This document shows positions 2,710 through 5,547 of a stretch of DNA of 64,000 nucleotides, in pieces. The stretch is from assembly GCA_024195585.1 (NCBI GenBank), contig SWBL01000098.1:62001-126000 (forward strand), read 5' to 3'. This stretch comes from Aureobasidium sp. EXF-3400 (Eukaryota; Ascomycota; Dothideomycetes; Dothideales; Saccotheciaceae). The notes below the pieces were generated by a model. That model worked only from the letters and a program-made list of their open reading frames with translations. It ran no database searches and was not told the DNA's origin. Position 1 is the first letter of the stretch; every line of letters starts with the position of its first letter. Position numbers and translations under genes: made by a program.

Positions 2710-5547
2710 ATGGATCTGGAGATCGTCAAATCACTTGGTTGTATCGTCCTTAGAGGCAATTGTATCGATGAGATCGCTCGAAATTCACCTTCAACCCCTT
2801 CGCAAAAGCCAAAATATCCATACCATGTTACGGTGTTTACAAAATCCGAAATTCAGGAGTTCGACGACGAACAAAAGCTTGAACTCGAGCAATACTTCAA
2901 CAACCCACCCGACCTTACAACACCAATCGATTTGGGAGTTGGGATACAAGGCTCTGTCGCATTTAATGTGCTCTTTTGGCCACAAGGAGACAGAATCAGA
3001 TCCTTGTTCGGCTTAATCAGGAAGAACTTCCATATCACCTTGTCGATGAAGGACAATCACGACATCGAGAAAGGCATCCAGGCAATAACTCATTGTAAGA
3101 CTCTGACCATAGAGCAAGTTGATCAGATCATCTCAACTTGTTTGAAATTCGCGTTCACCACTTCGACCTCCCAAGGATATGTACTAGAAGTGGTCAGGCT
3201 CATTGCAAGATCTCACGTCTCATGTCTATCAGAGCAATCGTTCGACAAGACATGGCAACTATTCTTCAAGCTTTCATCTAAGGCAGAGAGCTCTGAATTC
3301 GCTTTTGATTACCTCAAATCGTATCCAAATAGTATTGCTGCACTACTGCGCGCCGCTCACTGTTGTGAAATGCCGCAACAAGCAAAGCAGGCCATGTTCA
3401 TGTTTGCTCAAGCAACGCATCTGTTGCCGGACGGTGATTCAACCATCAAAACACAGTGCATCGAGGCGTTGGTACGATGTTCGACGTATACTGAATTCGG
3501 CCCGTTTTTTCTGGATCACGAAGCCGAAGATTGGAAGCAAAATCGAACTCTCTTTTCTACATACGGAGGTGCATTTCGGAACCCCCAAGTACGCCGATTT
3601 GTAAAGAGAGAGGTCAAAAGTATCATGGCTAATACTGACTTGGCCTCGGCTCTGCCCTCTGTGGCCTCAAACCAAGATGTGTTTACGCCATTGGAAGGAG
3701 AACTTTACAGGTTACCGAGATTCTTTCGTTGGTTGGCACCATTCAGACTTGCTGTGATGAGCACGCCGCGTTCGCGAGAAGACATCCAAGCACTGGTAGC
3801 TCTGGGTATTACACTGGTTGTCACCTTGACGGAAGAAGGACCACTACCACCAGAATGGTTTGACAGCACACCTTGTCGAAATCTGTTCCTGCCAGTACGC
3901 AATTACCAAGCACCCTCGAATCAGCAGGTAGACATATTCATCAAGTCTATGGATGACTTGCCGACCGAAGAAGCTGCCTTGGTCCATTGCGGTGGTGGCA
4001 AAGGTCGTGCTGGAACTTTCGCTGCATGCTATCTCATGGCCCGAGGATATGATGACGTCCCTCCTCAAAGACATGACGACGAAGAACATATTCATATGTA
4101 TCCTGGAGACGCTATGAAGCTCTTGCGTCACCTGCGACCTGGCAGTATCGAGACGATTGAACAAGAGACATTTGTCAGGAACTATGCTCAATACCTCATC
4201 AGCGGCCGAGAGGAAGTTGCTTCTGTGGAGACTCTACCCCACGAGCCATCAAATCCACTTGAGCTTGACGGAAAGTTGCCCAGACTTCCTTCGCTAGTCG
4301 TATGCTGTGGCGTACCCGGTTCAGGAAAAAGCACGTTTTCATCACAGCTCGCAACTCTTGGATATACTATCATATCGCAGGACGAGTTAGGAAGCAAAAC
4401 TGCTTGTCTCAACGCTTTGTCCAATGCGCTCGAGACCGGAAAGAAGATTATCCTGGATAGATGCAACCCATACGTTGAGGACAGAGAGCAATGGTTGGCA
4501 CATGCATTCCATCCGGATAATGCGCTTTGTGTCTGGTTTGATGTCAGCCCTGAGGTCTGTGTCAGAAGAGCGGATTCTCGCACAAATCATCCGACCATTG
4601 CGCCGGGAAAAGCGAAGAAAATCGTCAACTCATTCGTCAAAACATTTGTCCCACCGACCAGAAAAGAAAAATTTGCTTGCATTGCTCGAGTGTCATCAAA
4701 TATTGCTGCGTCTGACCTTCTATTGAGACTTGGAGTTTCTGTGAAACCCATCGCTCAAGCAGGTGTGGTTGATCGGTCAGAACAAGAAGCAGACGACGAA
4801 TCATGCCTTAAGACGGCTTCTGATGTACCGGAGAGACCCTACATCTACAAGTTTCCTCGAACCAGGCATCTTTTCAACATCGGCTCTGCGTCGCGTGATG
4901 ACCTGATTCTCTCCTCTTCCGACGCTGCGGCCTTCCTCCAATCATCCGACCATTCTACCACAGTTATTGTCGAGGAGAAAGTGGACGGCGCGAATCTAGG
5001 CATCAGTTTTGACTCCTCCGGCACTATCAGAGTGCAAAATCGGTCGCACTATGTCAACAGCACATCGCATGCACAATTCAAGAAGCTGGAGAAGTGGTTG
5101 AATGATCACTACGAAAGCTTGAGCAATGTACTTGACGCAAAGGGCAGTCAGCCTAGCAGGTGGATACTTTATGGCGAGTGGTTGTTCGCCAAGCACTCCA
5201 TTCACTACACCAACCTCCCAGATCTGTTCCTCGCCTTCGATCTATTTGATTCCGAAGCAGGCAACTTTCTAAGCAGAGAAGCACTCAGCGAGAGACTCGA
5301 GGGTACGAATATACACCAGGTTAGGAGTGTCGAGATAGAGAAGCTAGATGAGCAGTCGCTAATCGACATTGTGCGGTCACGGGAGTCAAGCTACTACGAA
5401 GGTATCATAGAAGGAGTTTACCTTCGTAGGCAGAAAGACGGAAAGACCATTGATCGCGCCAAGATCGTTCGGTCGGACTTCATCGCAGGAGACGAACATT
5501 GGAATCGCAGAGGCATGACACCGAATGTAGTGATGGGATATTACTGA
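2710..5547 (+). CDS. Multidomain RNA repair protein: 2H phosphoesterase, DSP phosphatase, kinase, RNA ligase
   Basis: A single-exon gene of 945 residues. The open frame continues upstream to a GTG at 2650, but the first ATG is at 2710 in strong context. Domains in order: a 2H phosphoesterase-like region with two H-x-T motifs (HVT at 39-41, HIT at 108-110); a helical, possibly TPR-like region about 120-310; a cysteine phosphatase with HC-x5-R (H426, C427, R433); a P-loop kinase (GVPGSGKST, 534-542, then a DRCN motif near 583) resembling T4-type polynucleotide kinase; and a covalent nucleotidyltransferase RNA ligase domain with motif I K757-V-D-G760, a FDLFD motif III-like segment near 843, EGIIEGV motif IV near 897-903 and AKIVR motif V near 917. 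Inferred role: heal 2',3'-cyclic phosphate and 5'-OH RNA ends, then seal them, as in tRNA or mRNA repair. Yeast Trl1 has ligase-kinase-CPDase order and no phosphatase. The substrate is unknown. Confidence 0.88.
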   Translation: MDLEIVKSLGCIVLRGNCIDEIARNSPSTPSQKPKYPYHVTVFTKSEIQEFDDEQKLELEQYFNNPPDLTTPIDLGVGIQGSVAFNVLFWPQGDRIRSLFGLIRKNFHITLSMKDNHDIEKGIQAITHCKTLTIEQVDQIISTCLKFAFTTSTSQGYVLEVVRLIARSHVSCLSEQSFDKTWQLFFKLSSKAESSEFAFDYLKSYPNSIAALLRAAHCCEMPQQAKQAMFMFAQATHLLPDGDSTIKTQCIEALVRCSTYTEFGPFFLDHEAEDWKQNRTLFSTYGGAFRNPQVRRFVKREVKSIMANTDLASALPSVASNQDVFTPLEGELYRLPRFFRWLAPFRLAVMSTPRSREDIQALVALGITLVVTLTEEGPLPPEWFDSTPCRNLFLPVRNYQAPSNQQVDIFIKSMDDLPTEEAALVHCGGGKGRAGTFAACYLMARGYDDVPPQRHDDEEHIHMYPGDAMKLLRHLRPGSIETIEQETFVRNYAQYLISGREEVASVETLPHEPSNPLELDGKLPRLPSLVVCCGVPGSGKSTFSSQLATLGYTIISQDELGSKTACLNALSNALETGKKIILDRCNPYVEDREQWLAHAFHPDNALCVWFDVSPEVCVRRADSRTNHPTIAPGKAKKIVNSFVKTFVPPTRKEKFACIARVSSNIAASDLLLRLGVSVKPIAQAGVVDRSEQEADDESCLKTASDVPERPYIYKFPRTRHLFNIGSASRDDLILSSSDAAAFLQSSDHSTTVIVEEKVDGANLGISFDSSGTIRVQNRSHYVNSTSHAQFKKLEKWLNDHYESLSNVLDAKGSQPSRWILYGEWLFAKHSIHYTNLPDLFLAFDLFDSEAGNFLSREALSERLEGTNIHQVRSVEIEKLDEQSLIDIVRSRESSYYEGIIEGVYLRRQKDGKTIDRAKIVRSDFIAGDEHWNRRGMTPNVVMGYY

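Follow-up and report, generated by a model that had tools for sequence, protein, structure and literature searches.

Can one fungal polypeptide carry out every step needed to mend a broken RNA? The question is raised by a gene of Aureobasidium, a black-yeast-like fungus, which lies on the forward strand near the start of the window, the whole stretch of 64,000 nucleotides analysed here (bases 62001-126000 of contig C98, in an assembly of 53.4 Mb and 717 contigs). Its reading frame runs, with no in-frame stop, from the ATG at 2710 to the stop codon at 5545-5547, and encodes a product of 945 amino acids. An earlier note, made from the letters of this DNA, had placed five modules in this single chain; the frame is indeed intact, and the four enzymatic modules score above the curated Pfam cut-offs. 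The features discussed in the text are the following.

2710..5547, + strand: predicted RNA-repair gene of the SAK family, 945 codons plus stop, intron-free reading (open reading frame, relatives, Pfam, dN/dS)
2737..3060, + strand: 2H-SAK phosphoesterase, residues 10-117 (Pfam PF22547, 5.3e-19, 69.1 bits against a cut-off of 27)
3085..3699, + strand: helical stretch, residues 126-330 (helices at high pLDDT in the full model)
3715..4176, + strand: PTP-SAK phosphatase, residues 336-489 (PF22784, 193 bits against a cut-off of 27)
4294..4593, + strand: 5'-OH polynucleotide kinase, residues 529-628 (AAA_33, 3.6e-13, 50.5 bits against a cut-off of 27)
4300..4380, + strand: stretch absent from the public 613-aa protein P0022, 81 bases, residues 531-557, P-loop included
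4840..5544, + strand: Rnl2-type RNA ligase, residues 711-945 (PF09414 at residues 751-920, 3.1e-31, 109.3 bits against a cut-off of 27)

Catalytic modules of the protein

The modules follow one another in the order 2H, helical, PTP (DUSP23-like), kinase (PNKP-like) and Rnl2-type ligase; profile HMMs, proposed in the note as a check of each segment, support 2H-SAK, PTP-SAK, AAA_33 and RNA_ligase alike. The active sites that had been read from the sequence are all in place. The two H-x-T motifs of the 2H module, H39-x-T41 (2824-2832) and H108-x-T110 (3031-3039), are 69 residues apart; the phosphatase features C427-x5-R433 (3988-4008), along with N398 (3901-3903) and E481 (4150-4152), and combines the PTP fold, the Cx5R motif and the general acid of DUSP23-like phosphatases; the kinase contains a Walker A motif, G534-S541 (P-loop 4309-4332), and D558 (4381-4383). 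In the ligase, where K757-x-D759-G760 forms the KxDG motif (K757 codon at 4978-4980), motifs I (KxDG), III, IIIa, IV and V of the Rnl2 type were all found; we take K757, E823, D844, E901 and K918 to be these nucleotidyltransferase motifs, respectively. No NCBIfam profile scored above its cut-off for this protein, and no PADLOC defence model was listed for it.

The full-length structural model has a mean pLDDT of 86.4, and Foldseek matches it to DUSP23, PNKP and a Naegleria RNA ligase, the last of these (5cot, 1.6e-5) at the ligase module; a separate comparison pairs the kinase module with the PNKP structure 3u7g (9.5e-14). The mutual placement of the modules is uncertain at the pTM obtained, 0.57. 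For the 2H and helical parts the structural reading is that of the full model; a single-sequence model of residues 1-337 gave a pLDDT of 42.9. The helical segment of the earlier note stands as regards its helices, which are seen in the model, while its TPR-like identity is a weak call: matches to designed TPRs are weak only, with sub-stretches failing to pass on their own, and TPR_14 matches 1 of 28 family members. The stretch is perhaps TPR-like, and a role as scaffold or RNA holder is possible on the model.

Membership of the SAK family

The Aureobasidium protein is a member of the named 'Swiss Army Knife' (SAK) family, reportedly introduced by Burroughs and Aravind in 2016, and not a new architecture: the signature domains (PF22547 2H-SAK and PF22784 PTP-SAK), the AAA_33 kinase, the PF09414 ligase and their order are all shared, with no clear difference. 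The order is not peculiar to this gene but usual in the family: in 28 members chosen by hand (this protein and 27 relatives), each of the four profiles, 2H-SAK, PTP-SAK, AAA_33 and RNA_ligase, is matched in all 28 (E <= 0.01). Searches that each scored about 8000 candidates found at least 497 relatives of the 945-aa query at E <= 0.001, at least 589 of a rotifer query and at least 27 of a split form described below; among the best 120 relatives of the 945-aa query, many are full length, with identities from 93% down to 34%. The sources named include Aureobasidium, Delphinella, chytrids, many Agaricomycetes, Pseudogymnoascus, bdelloid rotifers (a full SAK, P0122, in Adineta vaga) and two Adiantum ferns.

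Conservation was evaluated in those 174 of 195 collected proteins, our query among them, that measure 780-1400 aa. In 149 of the 174, and this copy is one of them, none of the eleven chosen catalytic letters is missing. The PTP cysteine C427 is found in 174/174 and the arginine R433 in 173/174, as is K540 of the kinase; in the ligase, K757, E823 and E901 are kept in 174/174 each, and the whole set of K757, E823, D844, E901 and K918 in at least 172/174 each. The 2H is the most variable module, with H39 in 162/174, H108 in 169/174 and loss of an HxT histidine in 11/174, counted among rows ungapped at those sites. A further 23 divergent proteins (P0197-P0219), some of which may be fragments or gene-model errors, comprise 15 with the usual 2H-PTP-kinase-ligase order, some in part, four with phosphatase, kinase and ligase without a 2H (P0206-P0209), one with kinase and ligase (P0216), one in which the ligase comes first (P0217), one with 2H, phosphatase and kinase without ligase (P0197) and one with phosphatase and kinase (P0200). 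Given the HxT losses and the four proteins devoid of a 2H, this module is not required in every member; from the conservation counts and the reduced forms, the phosphatase-kinase-ligase core looks more essential.

Profile searching of the genome revealed two strong SAK copies. The second, on contig C31, is intact, encodes 949 aa and is 72.9% identical over 944 codons; together with the many full-length relatives, it rules out both a chance frame and an artefactual fusion of two transcripts. Between the two copies dN/dS is 0.093 overall, 0.097 in the 2H, 0.112 in the helical stretch, 0.083 in the PTP, 0.080 in the kinase and 0.044 in the ligase, as against 0.372 and 0.225 in two linkers, figures which are rough, dS (1.81) being near saturation. 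The comparison shows purifying selection on each of the modules. From the same dS value we infer that the genome is that of a hybrid diploid. Ten further PTP-SAK matches in the genome are weak and presumably correspond to other phosphatases; two further PF09414 matches are DNA ligases with BRCT domains.

The shared upstream region contains at 2533-2548 an inverted repeat, GTTCCCGAATAGGAAC, whose pattern matches once in the window and which the homeolog keeps with one change. The divergent neighbour at 1-1990, on the minus strand, features MutS domains I-IV and was called MSH2 by eye; this stretch is 84.7% identical to the one adjoining the second SAK copy.

The public protein for this locus, P0022, is only 613 aa long: it begins at M306 (3625) and, within 3625-5547 of the window, skips the 81 bases listed above as though an intron had been called. 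Because relatives keep the unspliced frame, we consider the public model a mis-annotation, one that conceals the 2H module and disrupts the kinase. A corrected public gene model would make the family easier to spot.

Proposed chemistry of repair and its alternatives

In our judgement the protein is probably a self-contained RNA break-repair enzyme, of which we infer substrates, order of reactions and role; module identity, catalytic residues, purifying selection, coexistence with Trl1 and Tpt1 and distribution among the listed relatives are the computed basis. Cutting by a ribonuclease would leave 2',3'-cyclic-phosphate and 5'-OH ends; the 2H domain would open the cyclic phosphate, leaving a monophosphate that is probably 2', and the DUSP23-like phosphatase would strip the latter to give a 2',3'-diol, a job done with NAD+ by Tpt1 in the Trl1 pathway. 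Phosphorylation of the 5' end would fall to the PNKP-like kinase, and sealing of the break to the minimal Rnl2-type ligase, once adenylated at K757. The 2H step and the Tpt1-type step would both take place inside one chain, with no need for Tpt1. The note was right about a healing and sealing chain whose active sites are intact; that the added phosphatase could make the cycle self-contained, as it suggested, is accepted as a possibility, and the role in damage repair as probable: RNA hit by ribotoxins, antiviral nucleases or stress would be mended beside Trl1, and not in its place.

Which phosphate is removed can be approached through the general acids of the phosphatase. According to the available part of PMC9038691, Glu134 is the main general acid of DUSP23, and Asp65 of the WPD loop is its substitute; in our alignment, N398 of the SAK protein falls at Asp65 and E481 at Glu134. 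Among 189 family proteins of 740-1400 aa, a set that contains this one, 170 feature the N398/E481 pair, 7 have D and E, 12 have D and another residue, and none lacks both acids. The 12 proteins form one deep group in the tree and, since the states follow clades, few events must be counted, not 12. The persistence of at least one general acid in 189/189 is what one would expect if the departing alcohol, a ribose 2'- or 3'-OH, has to be protonated, and favours an ester substrate over a phosphoanhydride, that is, a putative 2'/3'-monoesterase rather than a 5'-triphosphatase. The rule is not strict, because PTEN and CDC25, which are monoesterases, are also without a loop acid, and the pattern would fix neither RNA as the substrate nor 2' versus 3'; the target of PTP-SAK might also be a different end, or a protein.

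The opposite assignment, an RNA 5'-tri- or diphosphatase like DUSP11 or the triphosphatase of capping enzymes, in a protein handling triphosphorylated 5' ends, strikes us as unlikely. DSP-fold RNA 5'-triphosphatases do exist, and PTPs without a WPD motif include, in the excerpt of PMC9038691 at hand, the RNA 5'-end enzymes MCE1 and DUSP11/PIR1, as well as PTEN and CDC25; in agreement with this, Asn replaces the loop Asp in 170 of the 189 proteins. However, every protein lacking the loop acid retains the Glu134 equivalent, the closest solved relative in the structure comparison, among the matches listed (mostly PTP folds), is DUSP23, and a triphosphatase would seem redundant beside a 5'-OH kinase.

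The self-contained repair enzyme that we prefer resembles Trl1 in joining a kinase, a 2H-type CPDase and an ATP-dependent ligase in one chain for RNA healing and sealing, but Trl1 has the order ligase, kinase, CPDase and draws on PF09511, PF08303 and PF08302, as opposed to 2H-helical-PTP-kinase-ligase. The 'reverse Trl1 order' of the earlier note is literally true, yet misleading, since the families involved are PF09414, AAA_33 and 2H-SAK, and not the three of Trl1. None of those three was listed for the SAK protein at E <= 1, although few matches beyond about 0.1 survive the HMMER filters. Elsewhere in the family a weak kinship is visible, PF08303 being matched in 4 of the 28 members (best 6.4e-4) and PF09511, below its cut-off, in P0206. 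The genome contains two copies of the Trl1 CPDase domain, and one of two Trl1 copies was read: within the retrieved part of its frame it features the PF09511 ligase at 14-247, the PF08303 kinase at 339-497 and the PF08302 CPDase at 500-755. No phosphatase domain was listed in this genome's Trl1 at E <= 1e-5. Tpt1 is found in two places, each as two exon matches. The different domain families and the separate, complete Trl1 rule out a rearranged Trl1.

A second ligase for tRNA splicing or HAC1-type splicing, backing up Trl1, is a distinctly improbable role. The domain content implies the same overall chemistry, and tRNA halves could presumably be sealed, but full Trl1 and Tpt1 are both present, three of the modules (ligase, kinase, 2H) come from Pfam families other than those of Trl1, and the ascomycete copies found do not form one clade, which would be odd for an essential splicing factor; the splicing of specific RNAs, which the note had also put forward, is unsupported, given the same Trl1 and Tpt1. 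It is more improbable still that one or more modules are relics in what is mainly a kinase-ligase or a regulator: degeneration affects the 2H more often than any other module (11/174), and forms lacking the 2H (four) or reduced to kinase and ligase (one) occur among the 23 divergent proteins, but this copy has all the chosen catalytic residues, and selection between the genome copies is purifying on every module.

The Trl1 pathway needs Tpt1 afterwards, and T4 Pnkp/Rnl and bacterial Pnkp1-Rnl-Hen1 are made of separate polypeptides with other phosphatase folds. Both of the latter share with SAK a kinase, a phosphatase and a ligase; SAK differs in that a single chain unites a 2H with a phosphatase of PTP fold, and in having no methyltransferase among its Pfam matches. 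As far as the accessible passages of the sources go, Pnkp1-Rnl-Hen1 mends ribotoxin-cut RNA (PMC4411300), and in an alternative route the 2H enzyme leaves a 2'-phosphate which KptA/Tpt1 removes with NAD+ (PMC9503650).

Distribution, relatives and meaning

Phylogeny was evaluated on 35 rows picked by hand from 218 proteins, in a quick tree, the tested clades being named after earlier trees had been seen. The Aureobasidium/Delphinella branch falls with chytrids (98*) and that of Pseudogymnoascus with Basidiomycota and rotifers (98*). A single ascomycete clade is rejected (p-AU 8.2e-11), as is a single clade of Ascomycota and Basidiomycota (p-AU 5.6e-84), while a single basidiomycete clade is not (p-AU 0.144). 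Since the ascomycete copies are not one clade, the simplest reading suggests that SAK moved horizontally between distant organisms; ancient duplication followed by loss is a further explanation compatible with the tree. For the two Adiantum proteins, P0053 and P0069, a single fern clade is likewise rejected (p-AU 3.6e-4), and these copies may reflect contamination or separate transfers; simple contamination is less likely for P0069, which sits on a 139-Mb contig. Near Aureobasidium, three proteins (P0049, P0052 and P0054, one of them named Delphinella) form a subclade with a degenerate 2H and both D398 and E481.

Relatives were also found in viral data sets. Among viral structural models, Foldseek matches a Terrestrivirus protein of 859 aa (2.2e-62, 27% identity over 979 columns; whole-chain TM 0.3, rmsd 34) and a Bodo saltans virus protein (1.6e-36). 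An IMG/VR scan, in which 80 of 82 confirmed loci were kept, produced 49 loci with the ligase alone, 30 with the ligase and a kinase-like frame, and one, L095 (3938-6386), with a split SAK: a 2H-PTP-kinase gene of 565 aa on the minus strand and a ligase gene of 257 aa on the plus strand, overlapping at their 3' ends. The viral origin of L095 is IMG/VR's own call; NCLDV capsid and VLTF3 models have no match in its 30.9-kb record, a fragment, and the capsid model matched no control either.

In bacteria, 80 of at least 113 confirmed loci were kept (L015-L094), many on short contigs, with patterns drawn from ligase and P-loop alone. The ligase part, present in all 80 and 30-43% identical to the SAK ligase in the best segments, belongs to stand-alone proteins of about 225 aa sharing this module; a SAK-type 2H, PTP or kinase was found in none of the 80 at E <= 0.001. 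A bacterial operon with all SAK parts is thus missing among these ligase loci, which is no proof of its absence. An ATPase and a PIN-like gene, searched with models built from six of the 80 loci, which match by construction, are both present in 70; four loci have the ATPase only, two the PIN-like gene only and four neither, some of them at contig ends. In the one locus tested with PADLOC (L063, 4071-6666), HEC-03B (1.4e-134, best of 82 families) and HEC-03A (5.7e-27) were recognized, and nothing was reported for the ligase gene. HEC-03 may comprise three genes, the third being an RNA ligase; no joint mention of HEC-03 and RNA ligase was found in the literature searched, and the HEC-03-like genes near the ligase are candidate defence genes. 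The companionship of a nuclease-like gene and a SAK-ligase relative would fit an origin in conflicts.

In bdelloid rotifers, RNA-ligase genes of foreign origin are, in the part of PMC11258130 available, strongly induced by a fungal pathogen, with repair of ribotoxin damage as the suggested role; the same part gives bacterial or phage sequences as their best BLAST matches and no enrichment under desiccation, so that the pathogen-induced ligases may not be SAK. Radiation induces two foreign RNA-ligase genes, as stated in an excerpt of PMC10809525.

SAK is a named family, apparently without a biochemical test: no paper was recognised as assaying a SAK-type protein in a literature search that covered subscription journals poorly. 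New here are the pattern of general acids, the position of the Dothideales copies in the tree and the split two-gene relative, along with the giant-virus fold matches, the ligase kin beside HEC-03-like genes and the faulty public annotation. We put forward, as a tentative reading held with less than even confidence, that PTP-SAK is an RNA 2'-phosphatase, a PTP fold doing Tpt1's job in one chain, that SAK is a mobile NAD+-independent kit which has travelled between fungi, bdelloid rotifers and giant viruses in the course of conflicts with RNA-cutting enzymes, and that its ligase shares ancestry with the ligases of HEC-03-like bacterial loci. The intron-free gene, with its defined active-site residues, makes the replacement of Tpt1 by the PTP domain directly testable, and a one-chain repair enzyme, if such it is, would be a handy reagent. 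A single chain able to restore breaks with cyclic-phosphate and 5'-OH ends without Tpt1 would amount to a complete pathway of RNA repair in eukaryotes that stands apart from tRNA splicing; the patchy distribution of the family is in keeping with RNA repair being a defence trait that organisms exchange.
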